Assembly: GCA_017452115.1 (NCBI GenBank)
Contig: JAFTNB010000151.1
Location: 1 to 10,220, forward strand
Direction: 5' to 3'
Length of the DNA: 10,220 nucleotides
Source of the DNA: Alphaproteobacteria bacterium
Lineage (GTDB): Bacteria > Pseudomonadota > Alphaproteobacteria > RF32 > CAG-239
Part shown: positions 254 through 10,114 of the stretch, in pieces
How the letters are laid out: the number at the start of each line of letters is the position of its first letter
How positions within the stretch are numbered: position 1 is the stretch's first letter
Made by a program: the position numbers and the translations under genes
Notes under the pieces: generated by a model
What the model was told of the DNA's origin: nothing
The model's input: only the letters and a program-made list of their open reading frames with translations
Databases searched by the model: none

Positions 254-1180
254 TTATTTTGCAAGTTGAGCAGCAACTTCAGCAGCAAAATCTTCTTCTT
301 TCTTTTGCAAACCTTCACCTAAACGGAAACATACATATTCTTTAAGTTTAATATCTGTTCCCATTTCTTTGGCAGCATCAGCAATAATTTGCTTAACTTT
401 TTTGTCGGGATCCATGATATAAGCTTGTTCTTCAAGAACAACTTCATCATAATATTTACGAACGCGGCCTTCTACCATTTTTTCGATAATATTTTCAGGT
501 TTTCCGGAAGCTTTAGCTTGTTCAGAGAAAATAGCTTTTTCACGTTCAACAGCTGCCGTATCAACAGAAGCAATATCAAGGAACAACGGATTAGAAGCTG
601 CAATATGCATAGCAATATGTTTACCGAGTTCATTTAATTTTTCTTTATCTCCTGTAGATTCAAGAGCAACTAATACACCGATTTTACCTAAACCAGATTT
701 AACGGCATTATGAACATAAGAAGCTACAACACCATTGTTGACTTCAAGTAATTTTGCACGGCGTAAATTCATATTTTCACCGATTTTAGCAATCATATCT
801 GTCAAGCGTTCTTCAAAAGATTTGTTTACTTTCGGACATTGGAAAGTTTTCATATCACAAACTTCACCTTTATTCAAAAGAGCAACGGTAGCTGCATCTT
901 CAACATATTCTTGGAAAATATCATTTTTTGCAACGAAGTCTGTTTCAGAGTTAACTTCAACTACAGCACCTTTGTTACCGTCAACGGCAACAGCAACCAA
1001 ACCTTCAGCAGCAATACGTCCTGCTTTTTTTGCAGCAGAAGCCAAACCTTTTTTCCGCAGCCAGTCAATAGCTTGTTCCATATCACCATTAGTTTCGGTC
1101 AATGCTTTTTTGCAATCAAGCATACCGGCACTAGTTGTTTCGCGGAGTTCTTTCACCATAGCGGCAGTAATATTTGTCAT
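254..1180 (-). CDS. tsf: Translation elongation factor Ts
   Basis: Guanine-nucleotide exchange factor that regenerates EF-Tu-GTP during protein synthesis in the cytoplasm. The 308-residue product matches the usual length. The N-terminal UBA-like domain (about 1-55) contains the family signature around [16 protein letters not shown], and the invariant EF-Tu-contacting TDFVAKN sits at residues 80-86. The core dimerisation-type subdomains follow (for example [10 protein letters not shown]). The ATG at 1180 is supported by AAAGGGA (1191-1197) ten bases upstream. The gene lies 95 bases downstream of rpsB in the usual bacterial order and is closed by the terminator at 202-227. The spacer hairpin at 1212-1247 may tune its expression relative to rpsB. 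Nothing is missing or frameshifted. Confidence 0.98.
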
Positions 1181-1275: not shown

Positions 1276-2076
1276 CTATTCAGCACTGGCTTCAGCTTCA
1301 GCGGCAGCTTTTTTAGAAGCTTTTTTCTTTGCCGGTTTAGCTTCGCTTTCAACCATTTCTTCAACTTTAACACCATGAGCTGCGATTTCAGCCTGCATAC
1401 CATCGAGGATAGCGCCAGAAACTAACTCAGAATAGAAAGAAATAGCGCGAATAGCATCATCATTACCCGGAACAGGAAAATCAACAGCATCAGGATCTGC
1501 ATTTGTATCGCAAATACCGATTACTGGAATACCAAGCTTTTTAGCTTCTTTGATAGCCAAAGATTCTTTTGGAGTATCGATTACAAACAAGAGGTCTGGT
1601 TGACCACCCATATTCATAATTCCACCAAGTTCCAATTCAAGTTTTTCCTGTTCTTTTTTAAGATTCTGCATTTCTTTTTTTGTATAACCGTCATAAGCAT
1701 TTTTTTCAGCCATATCTTTGAGTTTAACAAGGCGAGAAATTGATTTATAAACGGTTTTCCAGTTGGTCATCATACCACCGAGCCAACGATGATTTACATA
1801 ATATTGACCGCATCTTTCAGCATTTTCTTTGATAATGTCTTGAGCTTGTCTTTTTGTACCCACAAACAAAACCTTACCGCCTTGAGCAGCAATATCTCTA
1901 GCAGTAGCCAAAGCTGTATAAAGCATTGGGTAAGTTTTTTGCAAGTCAATAATGTGAACATTATCTGTTTTGCCAAAGATGAAAGGAGCCATTTTCGGAT
2001 TCCAACGACGAGCGTGGTGACCGAAATGAACGCCGGCTTCAACCATTTGGCGCATTGTAAAAGTAGGAAGTGTCAT
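1276..2076 (-). CDS. rpsB: 30S ribosomal protein S2
   Basis: Structural protein of the small ribosomal subunit, needed for S1 association. The 266-residue product opens with the family N-terminus ([20 protein letters not shown], residues 8-27). It continues with VGTKRQAQ (72-79), the signature [12 protein letters not shown] (95-106), the coiled-coil insert (about 110-150) and the [22 protein letters not shown] core (161-196). The C-terminal 25 residues are a Lys/Ala/Glu-rich tail of the kind seen in alphaproteobacterial S2. I chose the ATG at 2076 because AAGGA (2086-2090) lies 9 bases upstream and the protein then begins like other S2 proteins. A GTG 23 codons upstream would add residues foreign to the family. 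It is first in the operon with tsf. Confidence 0.98.
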
Positions 2077-2373: not shown

Positions 2374-5300
2374 ATGGAAAAATATACGGGTGAAGAAAAC
2401 AATTATAGCATTGAATTTTGGGAAGATCATAGGATATTGCCCAAAGATTGCGAAACTACGCAAATTGTCCAAAAGTATATTAAATCAATTTGTACCAAAT
2501 TATACCAAAAAAAAGGTGGTGAATATGCTCAACCGGATTATTTTGATAAAAATTTTCAAATTGTGGTAGAGGATAAGCCGGAAATTAATGCTGCATATAT
2601 GTCCAAAAAACATACAAAGGATAACCGTAATATTCTGTATGTAAGCAAAGGTTTATTAGCTAATGTGCAAAATGAAGCACAATTAGCCTCTGTTATTGCA
2701 CATGAATTAGGTCATTTTGAAGTTGATGAAACTCGCGAAAAAGATAGATTTGGTGATTCTACGGGTGGGCATGAACATGAAATGTCCGCCGATGATTTAG
2801 GTTTTAAATCTTTAGTAGAAGCCGGATATAATCCTGACGAAGCAGTCAGCTTTTTGAAAATGATAAATGTAGCGCCGCAAGATACCAAATCGGCTTATGA
2901 ATCTGCTAATGACGTACACGGAAACACATCTACACGTATTGACCGCTTGATGACTCGTAAATCAGCTTATGAAAAGCAAGGAGTAGTATTTTCTACGGAT
3001 ACTTTTGAAAATCGTTTTAAATATTTTCAAAAAGATTTTCTTTTAAAAGCCTCTAATGATCATTATATCAGTTACTTAGAAGAAAGAATTAGAGAAGAAT
3101 ATCATGTTTCTTCAAGCCGAGAAGTATCGCCTAAAGAACGCTGGAATTTTTGTGAAAAAATTATTACAGACGAACCGAAAACACTAGCTGTCAGTGGACA
3201 AAGAGTAGTATCATTTTCACAGATTTTTTCACAAAACGTACCGTCTGTATCCAAAGAAGATGCGATACAAATTAACCGAATTTTAGAAAAAGCTTATGCC
3301 TTTAAGGAGCAATACCTTTCTAGGGATGTTGATGATATGTGGTGCGGCAGTCAATTGCCTGTTCGCGATGAAAATGGCGATGTTTATATAAAACCGCTGG
3401 GTAGTTTGGCATATAAAATAAATCATATGCAAAAATTAATAAAAGACAAAGATGAATTTAATCAGTTAAAAGAAGCTTCCACCGCTAATAATACCGCACA
3501 TGAATTAAATAAACCTTACAATATGGAAGATCATGTTGTTATGCCGTCTTTTTCTATTGAGGGCCTCCAAAAAGGCGATACTGTTCCTTGGGCATCGGTA
3601 GCTGAAGTGGCTAATGCAGAAAACTGGATAAATATCAATAGAATTATGAATATTTTAAATGTTAAGTATAATTATTTTGCACAAATATATGGAGATAGCC
3701 TCGGCTATACTAAAGGAGATAAAAATAATATATATGTAAATGCTCAAGGAGAGGTTGTAAGTACCAATCCGGAAGAAGTCGCCTCGTTACATTCGGAATG
3801 TGAAGATAAAGTTCAAAATAACCAAACTAAAGAACGAAAAAGACAAATGAAGTTAGATTTTCATGATCAACTTGCAATTATGTCGCAAAATGAACGTGGC
3901 TCGGCAGTTTTTACCGAAGCAAAACAACAAGCTTCCGCAATCTATCTTAAATCGGTTGATGCTTTTGCAAAGATTGATGCTAAATCATCTGATTATTTAC
4001 TTAAATATGGAACCGGATTACACTTTAATCCGGAAGATAAAAATCGTCCGTCCGCTCAGTTATTTGCAGATCGTCCTTATTATTTATCTCCTTCTTATGA
4101 TGATGCTAAATATGCACAAATATTTTATCCGTTATTTACGGAAGTGGTATTGGATACCGAATTAAAAGATATTATGCAAGTTTATCATAGTGAAAGGTAT
4201 CCTAAGGTAGATAAAGCCTTAAATTTTGTCAACGGTCTTTACAATACTATGTTAGATACAAACAAAAAAGAATTAAATAATGTCAGCCCTCAAATTATAC
4301 GAGCAATGGCTCCCTCCGTGTTTAGGGTATATGGCGATTTAATGTATGATACTCCAAATACATCATCGGTTAGTTATTTGCATAGAATTGTCACTCAAAC
4401 TCTTCTGAATGATAATGTCGGAAGTGAGGGAAATTTACCCTATGTTGAAGAATGGCGCGCTAGACAAGGCTTAACAGAAGCCAATAATACGGATGAATTA
4501 GTTCATAATTTGTCAAGCTTACAACCTAAAGAGCCTTATTATGAGGGATATGCTGTAACAACCTCAAAGCTTTTGTACGATTACGAAATAATGCGTACGG
4601 TTAACAAAGGTGTAGATGTTGATATAAGTACTGTACTCAACACTATACCAAGCGTGGTTTCTCCGGCATTAGCCGATAAATTGACCGACTATGCATTGCA
4701 AAAAGATTTATTCGGGGCCAAAGAGGGAGAAAGCGCAGAATCAACTTATGAACGTTGTAAAGAACTTTATATTACAATGACCGCCAAAGAAGCCTTTACC
4801 TCAAAAGATGACACACAGCGTCAAATAGAAAGTAAATTACTTTCCCATATGCAAAAATTATCTCCTGAACGCCAATTGGAAGAAGCTTATGATCTTATCA
4901 GTACACATGCCAATCATGATATTGCCAATATGGAGATTAATGATAGTATATTTACAAGCCAGACAAAAAAAGAAAGAAACAACATCAGAATTGAACGACT
5001 CAAGGAACTTGGCGGTTCTATTTTGCAATATGACGGCAATAAACAAATAGTTGAACGTATGTGTGCCAATCATATTGTAACCAAACATGGAATTGATGAT
5101 GATACTCCCGAATATCAAGAAAAAATAACCGCGGAATTAGAAAATGTTTCTGCTAATATTTCTCAAAAAAGCCGTAAAAGAATTTGCGAGCAAGTAGCAA
5201 AAGGGGTAATGGCACAAAAACAACTGGCTTATGATATTAAAGAGATTCATGACAAAGATTTATCTAATGCCGAAGTTAGAAATAAGGCGGTTAACGGATA

Positions 5301-7998
5301 TAATTTATTAGACACTTATATTATGCGTAATCCGGATTTCTCTGCAAAGGCTATGTCTTTTTTACTCTCTAATGGCAATACCGAAGATTGTCGACAGTTT
5401 AGTCAAGATTTAGCACAAGAATACAATACAAAAAGATCTCTGATTCCGGAAGAATGGAAAAATAATATGGATAAAAAATTAATAGATAATAATATTTCCG
5501 GTCTTACCTCAAGAGATATCCAAAATTTGACCATTCCTGAAGATTCTTTTGTTTCTGCTGCCGGCAAGCTGCATGAAGAATATCTAAATGCCGGCTTTGA
5601 AGAACGAGCAGTGATAATGCATCGGTTACTTGATAGTTATGCCAACGAAAGCAATCTTTCCGAAGAAGAAAAACTACAAAAGCAAATTTCTTTTGTTTCC
5701 GATAAGGTTTTTGGTACAAGAGCTGAAGATAAAGATTTATTACAAGAAGTAAAAACTATTTCTACTGCAGTTTGTCACCAAGAAGAACAGCCTTCATTAT
5801 TATTGGGTGCTGTATTATCGGGACGGGAACCGGGACAAGCTGATAAAAATATGAATGTTGGCGATGGTTTAGCTATGTTTTGTGAAAAACAAGGTACTGC
5901 ATGGGTTAAATTAGCACAAACTTTATCATATGTAGATGCCTTGCCTCAAGATATTAGGGATAGTTTAGGTCGCTTAAAAGATAAAGCCAATGAACCCAAA
6001 CAATGGGAAATTCACAAAGATTTAGCAGAAGCTATGCCGGAAAGTGAATTATCCCGAATTAAACATGTAAAAAAATTTATTGGCGGTGGTACTTTTAATA
6101 AAACAATTTTAGTTGATGTTGAAAATGAACAATCAGGTAAGCAAGAAACTAAAGTTGTTCAGGTAATGCATGATAGAGCAGCAACAAAATCAGAACGTGA
6201 ATTTAAGAAAATCAATGCTGCAATTGATGAATTATGTACACAAGATTCTAAATATGAGATATTGCGAAGTGTAGCTGAACGTTCTGCTAAAAATGCCGTT
6301 ATCGAGGTTGATATTAAAGAAGGAGCAAAGCAATATGAAAATGCATGCCAAAACTATGGAAAAATTGAAAGTATTGAACTAAATGGTGTTTCATATATTC
6401 CTAAAGTTGCAACTTGGGAACGTTATGGTGAATCTCAATATTCTAATTACAAAATTATGGAAATGGCGCCCGGAAAGAGTATAGATTCTCCTGAATTTAC
6501 TCCGGCTCAACGTCGAGAAATGGCTCTTGCTTATACCGCAATTGAATTATCTAATTTGATGGGTGGAAAAGCATGGGATATTGATAGACATAGTAAACAA
6601 CAAAACTTTCATGTTACTAAAGATGAACACGGCAAAACCATCGTTGAAATAGGTATTTTTGATACAGGAGCCCAACGTCCGGCCCCGACTAAAGATGAAA
6701 AGAAATTACTTGGTAAGTTTTTGGTTGCTGTAGTTAAAGAACAACAGCAAGGCAAAGGTGGAAATTTAGGCGAATTTATGCTGCAAAAAATAAAAAAATT
6801 TGAAAAAGCCGGTAAAGATGTTAATTATGTTTCCGATGTCCAGCGCGGTTTATTGGCTATTTCTGATGTTATGCAATATATGAATACTCCGGAACATCCA
6901 AATGGTATGGCCGATGGTCTTATGACTTGTTTTAAAGTCTTAAAAGATAAAGAAATTATTGATAACGGATTATATAAAACATTAATTAGAGAAACAGCAA
7001 AGTCAATTCTTAAAAGCCCTTCTTTTGCTAAAAAGGCGCTCAATGCGGTAATTCATCCGAAAGAAAATACGGATAATTTAAGCATCAATTTAAGCAATAA
7101 TAATGATAAAATTGAACAGCAAATAAAATCTTCAGTAAGAGTTGATAAGCCATCATATGAAACAGAAAAAATTGAGTTAAATAAAACTCGCATTAAACCT
7201 AAACCCAAAACACCTAGAGAACAGGTTGAAAGTAAGTTAGAACAGCTTGGTATTGATAAAAAAAGCTATATGTTATTAACACCGGATGATAAATGGTTGG
7301 AAACTGAATATGGATTTGGCGGTTCTCGATCCATTGATGTTTATTTTGGACGTCAAGAACAAGCTGCAAAAGCCGGAAAAGAGATATTAGTCGGTGCAAA
7401 TAATGGCTATAGTGCTGCATATTTTGCCAAACAAGATATTTATGTTGTTTCTCCCGACTATAAGCTGCGAAATGCATTATGCGGCAGAGGTTATGATGAT
7501 GGTTATGGCGTAATGTTTTCCAATGGAGAACGATTTACCAATAGTGAATGGAGAAATGATAAGTGGAAAGATATAAAAGCCTACGTAGCCAATAAGGATA
7601 AAGAAAAGCATAACGACCAGTCCAAAACTGCAGCATTTATTCATGATGCAGACAGAAGAACAATATTAGAAAAAACCGGACGTTCTGTTCCTTTGGAGGT
7701 GCAAAAAGATTTTTCAGTGAAAGAACAAGAAAATATAAATTCTCCGGTTATGAATACTGTCCAGCCGGATATTTTAGAAACTGCAAGTATTCAATCTCCA
7801 ACTGCAGAAAAAATAGATGAGAAAACGCAAAAAGGAAAATTTATACATTATTTACGTTTAGGACGTAATTTGAAGTTAGAACAAAATAAAGGACGCAATT
7901 CTGAAAATACTCAAACAAAAACAACTGAAAAAGAAACAAAATCTAATATTAATATAACTCAAAAATTAGGTAAACTTTGGAGCAAAAGCTCACGCTGA
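2374..7998 (+). CDS. Giant multidomain protein: M48-type metallopeptidase domain plus ABC1/UbiB-like kinase fold
   Basis: The 1,874-residue protein shows no signal peptide or membrane helix, so a cytosolic (or non-classically exported) product is likely. Residues ~25-200 form a gluzincin domain of M48 type: INAAYM (71-76), HELGHFE with HExxH at 110-114, EMSAD with E136 as third zinc ligand, AGYNP, and H182/R188 in the HxxTxxR element that closes M48 domains. Residues ~205-1120 are mostly helical, polar and unassigned. Residues ~1165-1450 resemble the ABC1/ADCK/UbiB atypical kinases: KLAQ (1179-1182) for KxGQ, GGGT (1237-1240) for the Ala-rich loop, VVQVM (1261-1265) as beta-3, ENA (1322-1324), IMEM..G (1361-1367), DRH....N (1404-1411) and FDTG (1429-1432). 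A further block (~1610-1750) and a Lys-rich tail are unassigned. The start is set by GAGG 7 bases upstream. Substrate and role are unknown. The peptidase call is firm; the kinase-fold call rests on motif order. Confidence 0.85.
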   Translation: MEKYTGEENNYSIEFWEDHRILPKDCETTQIVQKYIKSICTKLYQKKGGEYAQPDYFDKNFQIVVEDKPEINAAYMSKKHTKDNRNILYVSKGLLANVQNEAQLASVIAHELGHFEVDETREKDRFGDSTGGHEHEMSADDLGFKSLVEAGYNPDEAVSFLKMINVAPQDTKSAYESANDVHGNTSTRIDRLMTRKSAYEKQGVVFSTDTFENRFKYFQKDFLLKASNDHYISYLEERIREEYHVSSSREVSPKERWNFCEKIITDEPKTLAVSGQRVVSFSQIFSQNVPSVSKEDAIQINRILEKAYAFKEQYLSRDVDDMWCGSQLPVRDENGDVYIKPLGSLAYKINHMQKLIKDKDEFNQLKEASTANNTAHELNKPYNMEDHVVMPSFSIEGLQKGDTVPWASVAEVANAENWININRIMNILNVKYNYFAQIYGDSLGYTKGDKNNIYVNAQGEVVSTNPEEVASLHSECEDKVQNNQTKERKRQMKLDFHDQLAIMSQNERGSAVFTEAKQQASAIYLKSVDAFAKIDAKSSDYLLKYGTGLHFNPEDKNRPSAQLFADRPYYLSPSYDDAKYAQIFYPLFTEVVLDTELKDIMQVYHSERYPKVDKALNFVNGLYNTMLDTNKKELNNVSPQIIRAMAPSVFRVYGDLMYDTPNTSSVSYLHRIVTQTLLNDNVGSEGNLPYVEEWRARQGLTEANNTDELVHNLSSLQPKEPYYEGYAVTTSKLLYDYEIMRTVNKGVDVDISTVLNTIPSVVSPALADKLTDYALQKDLFGAKEGESAESTYERCKELYITMTAKEAFTSKDDTQRQIESKLLSHMQKLSPERQLEEAYDLISTHANHDIANMEINDSIFTSQTKKERNNIRIERLKELGGSILQYDGNKQIVERMCANHIVTKHGIDDDTPEYQEKITAELENVSANISQKSRKRICEQVAKGVMAQKQLAYDIKEIHDKDLSNAEVRNKAVNGYNLLDTYIMRNPDFSAKAMSFLLSNGNTEDCRQFSQDLAQEYNTKRSLIPEEWKNNMDKKLIDNNISGLTSRDIQNLTIPEDSFVSAAGKLHEEYLNAGFEERAVIMHRLLDSYANESNLSEEEKLQKQISFVSDKVFGTRAEDKDLLQEVKTISTAVCHQEEQPSLLLGAVLSGREPGQADKNMNVGDGLAMFCEKQGTAWVKLAQTLSYVDALPQDIRDSLGRLKDKANEPKQWEIHKDLAEAMPESELSRIKHVKKFIGGGTFNKTILVDVENEQSGKQETKVVQVMHDRAATKSEREFKKINAAIDELCTQDSKYEILRSVAERSAKNAVIEVDIKEGAKQYENACQNYGKIESIELNGVSYIPKVATWERYGESQYSNYKIMEMAPGKSIDSPEFTPAQRREMALAYTAIELSNLMGGKAWDIDRHSKQQNFHVTKDEHGKTIVEIGIFDTGAQRPAPTKDEKKLLGKFLVAVVKEQQQGKGGNLGEFMLQKIKKFEKAGKDVNYVSDVQRGLLAISDVMQYMNTPEHPNGMADGLMTCFKVLKDKEIIDNGLYKTLIRETAKSILKSPSFAKKALNAVIHPKENTDNLSINLSNNNDKIEQQIKSSVRVDKPSYETEKIELNKTRIKPKPKTPREQVESKLEQLGIDKKSYMLLTPDDKWLETEYGFGGSRSIDVYFGRQEQAAKAGKEILVGANNGYSAAYFAKQDIYVVSPDYKLRNALCGRGYDDGYGVMFSNGERFTNSEWRNDKWKDIKAYVANKDKEKHNDQSKTAAFIHDADRRTILEKTGRSVPLEVQKDFSVKEQENINSPVMNTVQPDILETASIQSPTAEKIDEKTQKGKFIHYLRLGRNLKLEQNKGRNSENTQTKTTEKETKSNINITQKLGKLWSKSSR

Positions 7999-9129
7999 TT
8001 GTTCATCAATAGATTGATGTTCTATAGATAATGCTGTATCTTCGCCGAGTTGAATATCTTCAATTTTCTGAATTCGTCGAGCTATTTTTCCCGAAGAAAT
8101 TTTAATATTGTCAATATCATCATTTGCTTGCTTAAAATGACGACTCAAACTTTCAATTCTTCCATCCAAACGACCTATATCATCAATCAATACACCAACT
8201 TCTTTTTGAATAACTCCGGCTTGTTCCCGCATTTTTGCATCTTTAAGAATAGCTCGAACGGTATTCAGCGTAGCCATCAATGTAGTTGGAGATACAATCC
8301 ATACTTTTGCTCGATAAGATGTTTCTACTACATCGGGAAAATTGGCATGAAGTTCAGCATAAATAGCTTCACTGGGTAGAAACATTAATGCCGATTCGGC
8401 TGTTTGTCCGGTAATGATATACTTTTCGGAAATATCTTTAATATGTTTTAGAACAGATGCTTTGAAGAATCTCTCCGCTTCGATTTTTTCTCTATCATTA
8501 GCAGCGATTCGTAACGCATGATAACTTTCGAGTGGGAATTTTGAATCAATCACAATCATCCCCGGAGGGTTAGGAAGATTTAATACACAATCGGCTCTTT
8601 TTTGATTTTCCAATACAACCTGAAATTCATATGCAGAAGGAGGAAGAGCAGATGTTACAATATCATTAAGTTGAATTTCACCAAAAGCTCCGCGAGCTTG
8701 CTTATTAGAAAGAACTTCTTGCAAAGATACAACTTGTTCTGAAAGAGCCGATATCTTTTGTTGTGCTGCATCAATTTTCGCCAAACGTTCACGTAAATCA
8801 GTAAGGGTTTCATTTGTTTTTGTTGTATTTTGTTGTAAACCTTCACTGACATTTTTTGTAACTTGTAATAATTTTTCATCCATGATTTTAAGTACAGATA
8901 AACGTTGCTCATTTATTGCCGCGGCAATAGTATCTTGTTGTTGGCGAGAATATTCGGCCATCTGACTTAATCTACCGGATAATTCCGATTGATGATGAAA
9001 CAAAATATCTGCCAAACGATTTAATTCCGGATTCTTTTTCTGTGTCCTCCATATTAACAATAAGATTAAAATGAAAAAACACAATCCTCCTACAATCAAA
9101 ATTTGAGCATTTGACAGATTATTTATCAA
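7990..9129 (-). CDS. rmuC: RmuC-family protein (membrane-anchored coiled coil with a nuclease-like core)
   Basis: RmuC proteins limit recombination at inverted or short repeats and carry a PD-(D/E)XK nuclease-like fold. The 379-residue product has one N-terminal membrane helix (about 8-27), which should leave the rest in the cytoplasm. A long coiled coil follows (about 35-145), then the conserved core: RGAFGEIQL (146-154), RADCVLNLP (178-186, with D180), IDSKFPLESY (194-203, catalytic-type D195 and K197), LPSEAIYAEL (251-260) and SPTTLMATLNTVRAI (280-294). I place the start at a TTG (9129), because GGAG (9138-9141) lies 8 bases upstream and the membrane helix follows at once; later ATGs would remove it. 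It begins one base after the accA stop, implying coupled translation, and its last 9 bases overlap the end of the convergent giant gene. It is shorter than the E. coli protein (475 residues). Confidence 0.93.
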   Translation of the reverse strand: MINNLSNAQILIVGGLCFFILILLLIWRTQKKNPELNRLADILFHHQSELSGRLSQMAEYSRQQQDTIAAAINEQRLSVLKIMDEKLLQVTKNVSEGLQQNTTKTNETLTDLRERLAKIDAAQQKISALSEQVVSLQEVLSNKQARGAFGEIQLNDIVTSALPPSAYEFQVVLENQKRADCVLNLPNPPGMIVIDSKFPLESYHALRIAANDREKIEAERFFKASVLKHIKDISEKYIITGQTAESALMFLPSEAIYAELHANFPDVVETSYRAKVWIVSPTTLMATLNTVRAILKDAKMREQAGVIQKEVGVLIDDIGRLDGRIESLSRHFKQANDDIDNIKISSGKIARRIQKIEDIQLGEDTALSIEHQSIDEQSA

Positions 9130-9130
9130 A

Positions 9131-10114
9131 TTAATATCTCCGTTCAGTATAAGATATTTCTCTTCCCATTGCCAAAAATTTTTCAGTACGTTCTGTTTTT
9201 AATTTTTCTCCGTTTAACGGCATCAATTCTTTTAAATGACGATGAATTGCATTACCAACTCTTTCAATAGTTAATGACGCATCCCGATGAGCTCCACCGG
9301 TTGGTTCAGGAATGATTTCATCAATAACGCCAAATTTTTTCAAATCTTGAGCTGTTAACTTAAGCGCTTCGGTTGCTTCCTTAACCTTATCTGCAGAGCG
9401 CCATAGAATAGAAGCACAACCTTCAGGAGAAATTACTGAATAGATTGAATGTTCAAGCATTAATATTCGATTTGCTGCAGCAATAGCGATCGCTCCTCCA
9501 GAACCACCCATGCCAATAACAATCGAAACTAAAGGAACTTTAATTTGTAAACATTTTTCAATTGATGACGCAATGGCTTCAGCTTGGCCGCGAGCTTCGG
9601 CTTCCACACCCGGAAATGCACCGTCTGTATCAACAAAAGCAATCACCGGCATTCCGAATTTATCAGCCAAATCCATTAATCTTTGAGCTTTGCGGTATCC
9701 TTCTGGTTTGGCCATTCCGAAATTATAACGAACACGGCTTTCCAAATCATGTCCTTTTTCTTGTCCGAGCACAACCACAGACATATTTCTAAAACGACCG
9801 ATGCCGCCAATCATTGCTTCATCATCAGCAAAAAGTCTATCTCCGCATAATGGTGTAAAATCTTCAATTAAATAATTAACATAATCCAAGCAGTGAGGGC
9901 GTTGTGGATGGCGTGAAACCTGTAATTTTTGCCAAGGCGTTAAGTTTGCATATGAAGCTTTCATTTGTTTCTCCAGTTTTTGCTGCAAACGTGTAATCTC
10001 GGGGGTGATGTCTACATCTTGTCCTTCAGCCAGATGGCGCATTGCCTCGATTTTATCTTCAATTGCTACAATATTTTTTTCAAAATCAAGAACTAAAGTA
10101 TTTTCGTTGTTCAT
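9131..10114 (-). CDS. accA: Acetyl-CoA carboxylase carboxyltransferase subunit alpha
   Basis: With AccD it forms the carboxyltransferase that moves CO2 from biotin on AccB to acetyl-CoA, making malonyl-CoA for fatty-acid synthesis in the cytoplasm. The 327-residue product is full length (E. coli 319). Landmarks are LTPWQKLQVSRHPQRP (58-73), GDRLFADDEAMIGG (91-104), MAKPEGYRKAQRLM (134-147), DTDGAFPG (162-169), GGSGGA (203-208, oxyanion-type loop) and ISPEGCASILWR (228-239). Residue 164 is Asp where most homologues have Pro (DTPGAYPG). The ATG at 10114 follows a weak GAG about 6 bases upstream. rmuC follows after a single base, so the two are probably co-transcribed. No accD or biotin carboxylase gene is in view. 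Confidence 0.98.
   Translation of the reverse strand: MNNENTLVLDFEKNIVAIEDKIEAMRHLAEGQDVDITPEITRLQQKLEKQMKASYANLTPWQKLQVSRHPQRPHCLDYVNYLIEDFTPLCGDRLFADDEAMIGGIGRFRNMSVVVLGQEKGHDLESRVRYNFGMAKPEGYRKAQRLMDLADKFGMPVIAFVDTDGAFPGVEAEARGQAEAIASSIEKCLQIKVPLVSIVIGMGGSGGAIAIAAANRILMLEHSIYSVISPEGCASILWRSADKVKEATEALKLTAQDLKKFGVIDEIIPEPTGGAHRDASLTIERVGNAIHRHLKELMPLNGEKLKTERTEKFLAMGREISYTERRY

Follow-up and report, generated by a model that had tools for sequence, protein, structure and literature searches.

The locus considered here raises the question of whether a single reading frame can genuinely join a zinc peptidase of the M48 type to a kinase-like domain of the ABC1/UbiB type, and, if it does, what kind of protein results from the union. 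The window, by which we mean the whole stretch of 10,220 bases that was analysed, is an entire contig belonging to a bin of 1.02 Mb that is 62% complete and derives from a gut bacterium. An earlier note had read positions 2374-7998 as one giant protein combining both domains, and had named an assembly error joining two genes as one circumstance that would overturn this reading. The giant is borne out by a single intact frame and by independent relatives: 15 database relatives with identities of 54-92% align along the whole frame with the same start, one full-length relative sits on a 150-kb contig, and a GAGG motif resembling a ribosome site lies directly 5' of the ATG. One could suppose that assembly had produced a chimeric frame, or that the kinase resemblance is due to chance. 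This idea draws on the contig end, which follows the last gene by 106 bases, on the incomplete bin, and on six congeners (94-100% complete) in which the giant was not found. It is refuted by the independent assemblies that yielded the full-length relatives, and it conflicts as well with giants in other genomes that match the window in both parts, with the clean controls of the profile comparisons given below, with a protein, P0024, that passes the Pfam cut-offs for both domains, and with the congener G006, in which the same flanking genes stand in the same order; we regard it as scarcely credible. The features of the window are collected in Table 1.

Table 1. Features of the window and of the giant protein that it encodes (base positions are counted from the first base of the window, residues from the start of the giant).
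Feature	Positions	Strand	Basis
tsf	254-1180	-	
rpsB	1276-2076	-	
M48/ABC1-like giant, whole gene, 1,874 aa	2374..7998	+	ORF list; 15 full-length relatives
M48 zinc-peptidase domain, residues ~55-205	2536..2988	+	Pfam, PDB 3c37, giants' M48 profile
HELGH, residues 110-114, zinc ligands and catalytic Glu	2701..2715	+	H110, E111, H114 invariant in 16/16
EMSAD, residues 136-140, third zinc ligand E136	2779..2793	+	E136, A139, D140 invariant in 16/16
H182...R188 M48 motif	2917..2937	+	both invariant in 16/16
Long linker, residues 206-1062, without known domain or membrane-like segment	2989..5559	+	Pfam, PDB profile search, hydropathy
ABC1/UbiB-descended region, residues 1063-1545, with conserved lead-in before kinase core	5560..7008	+	giants' kinase profile; hhalign
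KLAQ 1179-1182, KxGQ-equivalent	5908..5919	+	aligned with UbiB KxGQ
Gly-rich loop IGGGTF 1236-1241, replacing UbiB Ala-rich loop	6079..6096	+	aligned with UbiB AAAS
Q1263, beta-3 lysine position, substituted	6160..6162	+	profile alignment
E1311-V-D1313, UbiB ExD motif	6304..6312	+	aligned with UbiB ExD
DRHSKQQN 1404-1411, catalytic loop; D1404 retained, Q1409 at the Asn position	6583..6606	+	profile alignment
DTG 1430-1432, DFG-equivalent	6661..6669	+	D and G in 50/52 rows, 2 gaps
C-terminal domain, residues ~1610-1730	7201..7563	+	common to other large proteins of related bacteria
rmuC	7990-9129	-	
accA	9131-10114	-	

Because the same join recurs in other bacteria, the M48-ABC1 giants are a genuine, recurring class of proteins in which two well-known domains are fused. 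Sixteen matches were obtained in a protein search, comprising the 15 full-length relatives (1,688-2,174 aa, BLAST identity 55-92%) and P0016 (2,210 aa), which matches mainly in the kinase part. P0024 was reached through P0016, and when its kinase part was compared with long proteins, 36 matches including itself were obtained, for which the precomputed Pfam assignments record both domains in 14, M48 only in 9, ABC1 only in 10 and neither in 3; P0045 is the only one of these rows to name an organism. Some part of the protein is matched at E 1e-3 in 22 of the 152 genomes of the window's bacterial family. The kinase profile, applied at E 1e-5, matches 15 of 153 genomes of the order, 13 of them with a full-length match; G075 and G077 match in part only, and G060 and G139 hold two giants each. 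Within the class, matches occur in 5 of 289 genomes, namely the window's own, G741 (two giants), G607 (a frame of 1,200 aa) and two weak cases that lie in frames of 492-525 aa. A scan of named genomes gave no match with the window protein alone and 12 loci with an eight-row alignment; the titles of half of these 12 named relatives denote samples from the guts of ruminants (sheep, goat, roe deer, water buffalo), and one bears the label Rickettsiales. When 398 genomes sampled from the phylum were searched with P0024, 28 gave a match at E 1e-6, in frames of 479-879 aa with the exception of the window's own gene, and no second giant was found in this sample. No relative was found in phage records or, by a pattern scan, in viral contigs, and plasmids gave one match, to M48 only. 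Shortened forms were also observed: three short frames at L056 (G077:C15, 4946-6665, minus strand) group with the giants and are probably a decayed copy, while L054:6710-10594 and L055:3541-7323 encode truncated, M48-intact relatives of 1,295 and 1,261 aa in which the kinase-profile match ends midway (model 2-232).

The statement that no described family combines these domains agrees with our literature searches, in which no published description of an M48-ABC1 fusion was found in mainly open-access literature, including the accessible part of PMC9758233. The accessible part of PMC1262709 reports ABC1 combined with Usp or RIO1, and other kinases combined with Peptidase_M22, and contains no combination of a kinase with M48.

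By sequence, the window protein belongs to the M48 peptidases, and proteolysis itself is predicted. Pfam PF01435 matches residues 59-121 with 36.8 bits against a gathering cut-off of 20.3, PDB entry 3c37 (Peptidase, M48 family) aligns to residues 130-203 at E 7e-7, the NCBIfam BepA model matches the peptidase part at E 5e-6, and the M48 profile of the giants covers residues 30-234. The M48 hallmarks sit where they had been placed by the earlier note, and the zinc set (HEHE) is complete; in addition to the residues listed in Table 1, G151-P154 (GYNP) is invariant in all 16 aligned proteins, and H182...R188 aligns with the HP...R of other giants. The window protein thus has the HExxH, ExxAD, GYNP and H...R of M48 peptidases of the 3c37/BepA type, and a profile built from 21 giants of the P0024 type finds both 3c37 (E 1e-10) and BepA (2.5e-4). 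It differs from these peptidases in having no further Pfam domain such as TPR, which BepA carries, in having no membrane-like segment, and in having about 1,650 further residues. Identity as a defence system was also considered and rejected, PADLOC giving one partial match alone, to capP (E 0.0068), in the peptidase stretch.

The kinase-like part begins about 1,000 residues after the M48 domain. When the A2 alignment of 15 kinase fragments was compared by hhalign with 28 ABC1/UbiB proteins of Alphaproteobacteria, the probability was 97.2 (E 4.4e-11, 267 columns), against 0.4 for reversed UbiB and 0.0-1.5 for five column shuffles, and against 0.9 and 0.2 when the linking region and the M48 region were compared with UbiB; the resemblance to ABC1/UbiB exceeds chance by these controls. 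The window type (8 rows) and the P0024 type (21 rows, 13 of them with both M48 and ABC1 precomputed) match each other with a probability of 99.0 (E 4.8e-18, 360 columns). Single sequences cover a wide range of scores. Neither the whole window protein nor its kinase fragment matches Pfam ABC1 (PF03109) at E 1; the ABC1 cut-off of 22.9 is passed by two of the 15 window-type kinase fragments, L050 (33.3 bits) and L013 (25.6), and P0024 passes both cut-offs in one frame of 1,687 aa (M48 43.8 bits, ABC1 49.8). The NCBIfam UbiB model matches the window protein weakly at residues 1157-1223 (E 8.5e-4, 18.0 bits), L045 with 29.3 bits and P0024 with 70.2 bits over 288 residues, all three being far below its equivalog cut-off of 487.55 bits. 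When the window-type kinase profile was run against PDB sequences, the matches were weak, partial and of several kinds (1wgy at E 0.0075, casein kinase II at E of at least 0.53, a calcium-dependent kinase at 0.67, and ribosomal L18); ADCK3 was not among them, nor was it retrieved at E 0.1 with the P0024-type profile. Since these outcomes speak against the domain being easily recognised, Pfam, NCBIfam and hhalign are the basis of the ABC1 claim. In the one genome searched with Pfam ABC1, the window's own (62% complete), no match was found. Judged from these profile comparisons, the kinase-like domain is a descendant of ABC1/UbiB. The window protein is nonetheless not filed as a UbiB protein, because several defining UbiB/ABC1 features are absent from its kinase-like domain.

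These absences become apparent when the protein is aligned with the UbiB/ABC1/COQ8 (aarF) family, PF03109. The order of the aligned elements is the same, namely KxxQ, loop, beta-3, ExD, hinge, D-x-H loop and DxG, but the window protein has a Gly-rich loop and not an Ala-rich one, lacks the beta-3 Lys, the alpha-C Glu and the catalytic-loop Asn, and has its kinase-like domain fused to a peptidase. The KxGQ-like element was correctly positioned at residues 1179-1182 in the earlier note, but it reads KLAQ: the Lys and Gln, which occur in 48 and 49 of 52 aligned rows, are kept and the Gly is replaced by Ala, KxGQ proper being present in many relatives. The loop contains GGGTF, and position 1239 is occupied over 86 aligned rows by A in 47, G in 34, S in 2, D in 2 and N in 1. 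From the alignment, the loop Gly of the window protein is taken as the equivalent of ADCK3 Ala339, a residue whose change to Gly reversed the preference for ADP, as reported in the accessible part of PMC4718504. The ExD motif, absent from the motif list of the earlier note, is present in the window protein; its Glu is found in 50 of 52 rows (2 gaps) and its Asp in 34. D-T-G had been correctly recognised, with D1430 and G1432 in place, and D1404 of the catalytic loop is likewise present. Two other assignments did not survive the profile alignment, which puts the alpha-C Glu position at G1317 and not in ENA, and the Asn position of the D-R-H...N loop at a Gln. The core of the window protein is Q-G-D-Q-D, compared with the canonical K-E-D-N-D, and because three canonical positions are substituted, the suggestion that the protein phosphorylates is unsupported. 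As a separate observation, in L014, L015, L053 and L051 the last 90-100 positions of the kinase profile match again downstream of the kinase-like part.

When the 15 close relatives are compared with the window in bins of 50 residues, identity is 81-92% at residues 1101-1500 and 56-66% at residues 1-200, so that the altered kinase core is more strongly constrained than the peptidase; no region of the window-type protein is better conserved than the kinase-like part, despite the three substituted phosphotransfer positions. The explanation that we tentatively prefer, and to which we assign somewhat less than an even chance, is that the protein is a soluble M48 endopeptidase controlled by a C-terminal nucleotide- or ligand-binding switch of ABC1/UbiB descent. 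The zinc endopeptidase, closest in sequence to 3c37 and BepA, would cut proteins; the kinase-like domain would bind nucleotide or, in line with a proposal made for UbiB proteins, a lipid of isoprenoid type, and would act as a binding switch and not as an ordinary protein kinase; and this switch, separated from the peptidase by about 850 residues of scaffold, would control peptidase activity or substrate access. The retention of K1179, Q1182, ExD, D1404 and DxG is counted in favour of a binding switch. The same retained residues, together with the position of the domain as the most conserved part, argue against the unlikely alternative that the kinase-like domain is a pseudokinase which provides only a docking or dimerisation scaffold, an alternative to which the three substituted positions, and the additional loss of the catalytic Asp in L014, L015 and L053, would lend themselves.

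From 86 rows examined, 6 were set aside and 80 giants were classified by site state. Both sites are complete in 23, the peptidase alone in 34, the kinase core alone in 8 and neither in 15, so that the M48 zinc set is complete in 57 giants (34 with an altered kinase core and 23 with complete K-E-D-N-D) and the kinase core in 31. M48 is degenerate in 15 giants, a call which for P0016 (41 residues) and P0018 rests on weak matches; of these, 8 have a complete core, 4 have the Lys alone replaced and 3 lack the catalytic Asp. In a further 8 giants M48 was undetected, and all 8 keep both Asp. The earlier note had asked whether the domains always occur together, and as catalytic partners they do not. 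Loss of one site does not entail loss of the other part, so the join does not amount to a simple pair of matched enzymes; and because the kinase-like part persists where M48 is degenerate or undetected, not every member can have peptidase regulation as its function. The 23 giants in which a complete zinc set accompanies a K-E-D-N-D core speak for another reading, also improbable in our estimation, in which one chain carries two independent activities for convenience or channelling, that of a protease and that of a functional atypical phosphotransferase or ATPase with a lipid or small molecule as its substrate. The accessible parts of the literature are compatible with such an activity, in that ADCK3 has been proposed to phosphorylate small molecules or lipids (PMC4718504) and UbiB proteins have been tied to coenzyme Q and phospholipid balance (PMC10214851); the lack of the beta-3 Lys, alpha-C Glu and catalytic-loop Asn in the window protein weighs against it.

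The history of the join can be followed in both domains. In a quick tree, in which long branches meet at the junction of giants and UbiB and the UbiB set is alphaproteobacterial only, 75 giants, which form groups of 32 and 43, are set apart from 25 UbiB proteins by a single branch (SH-aLRT 100). The M48 and kinase distances are correlated with r 0.97 in the window's group (37 proteins, 666 pairs) and r 0.82 in the second group (35 proteins, 561 pairs), which indicates common inheritance and argues against domain swapping: the join is inherited as a unit. A regulatory link between the domains, as our preferred explanation would have it, is a guess from this co-inheritance, because shared descent alone, with no functional coupling, would give an r of 0.97 as well.

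In 24 gene neighbourhoods of the giants no neighbour is common to all, and some are common to small groups; PPDK adjoins three related giants, and the five neighbours that were scanned are PPDK, PFOR, a pyruvate formate-lyase, a helicase-nuclease and one protein without a match. The helicase-nuclease (DUF4011/AAA/REase_MTES_1575), encoded directly downstream of a giant at L088:11753-16015, resembles defence proteins. In the window, the 3' ends of the giant and rmuC overlap tail to tail by nine bases. In G006 the order tsf, rpsB, ..., rmuC, accA is the same, and the slot between rpsB and rmuC (L152:3986-6485) is occupied by genes for a gyrase-B-type topoisomerase and a GNAT protein, not by a giant. 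Among the other congeners, G002 and G003 have rpsB and rmuC in a different arrangement with 8.3-8.8 kb between them, G001 and G004 have them on different contigs, and G005 gave no RmuC match. The giant thus occupies a variable place between conserved genes.

Besides M48, Pfam gave nothing above cut-off over the whole window protein, and the linker profile (residues 330-1040) gave no credible PDB match, the best having E 0.27. The C-terminal domain, about 110 aa with conserved NNG and SNGE, gave no PDB match at E 1 as a profile, and could be a lineage-specific tail or a delivery tag. It was also seen in the proteins at L049:6992-7798, L017:2458-2889 and L016:8056-8529, which resemble the giant solely in this domain and have no Pfam match above cut-off. 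Localisation was assessed by crude hydropathy measures and not by a signal-peptide predictor. By a 19-residue measure, a membrane-like segment is absent from all 15 window-type proteins, the window's included, and among eight others (P0016-P0020, P0023, P0024, P0027) an N-terminal segment is found in P0023 and P0024 and internal segments in P0018 and P0019. By a 15-residue mean of at least 1.8, a measure applied to the 34 P0024-type relatives P0028-P0061, 26 of the 34 have a strongly hydrophobic stretch in the first 59 residues. If these N-termini are read correctly, the ABC1-type domain would lie outside the cytoplasm in the P0024-type branch, where ATP is not expected, and a role other than phosphorylation would be favoured in that branch.

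Such N-termini also invite the proposal, in our judgement distinctly improbable, that the giants are exported, effector-like proteins acting on prey or host cells. Further points in its favour are P0045, named an M48 family metalloprotease, which comes from a Bdellovibrionales bacterium, the Bdellovibrionales including known predators, and the presence of VirB4 in the window's genome. The window-type proteins, with no membrane-like segment in any of the 15, do not conform to it, and P0045 itself reaches only 1.6 on the 15-residue measure. VirB4 is found in 126 of the 152 family genomes, in 8 of the 12 that bear giants compared with 118 of the 140 others, an association only, by which the giants are not tied to a VirB-type system. 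No secretion gene was found among the five scanned neighbours, a minority of all neighbours. The effector, toxin or stress-factor role that had been suggested found no support. Among the matches listed, VirB4 occurs once per genome, apparently as part of an inherited type IV secretion system of small-genome gut Alphaproteobacteria.

The control of M48 peptidases is often unclear. The chemistry of the UbiB/COQ8 kinase-like proteins is described as unsettled in the accessible part of PMC4718504. A parallel to the giants, though not a homology of the fusion, is provided by the plant plastoglobule, in which the M48 peptidase PGM48 and the ABC1K kinases share one compartment; according to the accessible parts of PMC3635846 and PMC12587418 they are separate proteins, and no direct link between them is seen there. 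A more speculative version of the switch explanation, which we consider rather doubtful, makes the giants an ancient class of single-chain proteins whose zinc protease is gated by a UbiB-type sensor of nucleotide or lipid; one branch of the class would be exported and another would stay in the cytosol, and in the gut-bacterial branch the switch would have acquired a Gly-rich loop and given up the canonical Lys-Glu pair. If this were true, the fusion would be direct evidence that M48 peptidases and ABC1 kinases, which are neighbours in plant plastoglobules, form one functional circuit. The retention of the fusion across very large divergence suggests that the two domains work together, and the giants offer single-chain proteins in which this can be tested, with the natural variants that have lost either site as ready controls.
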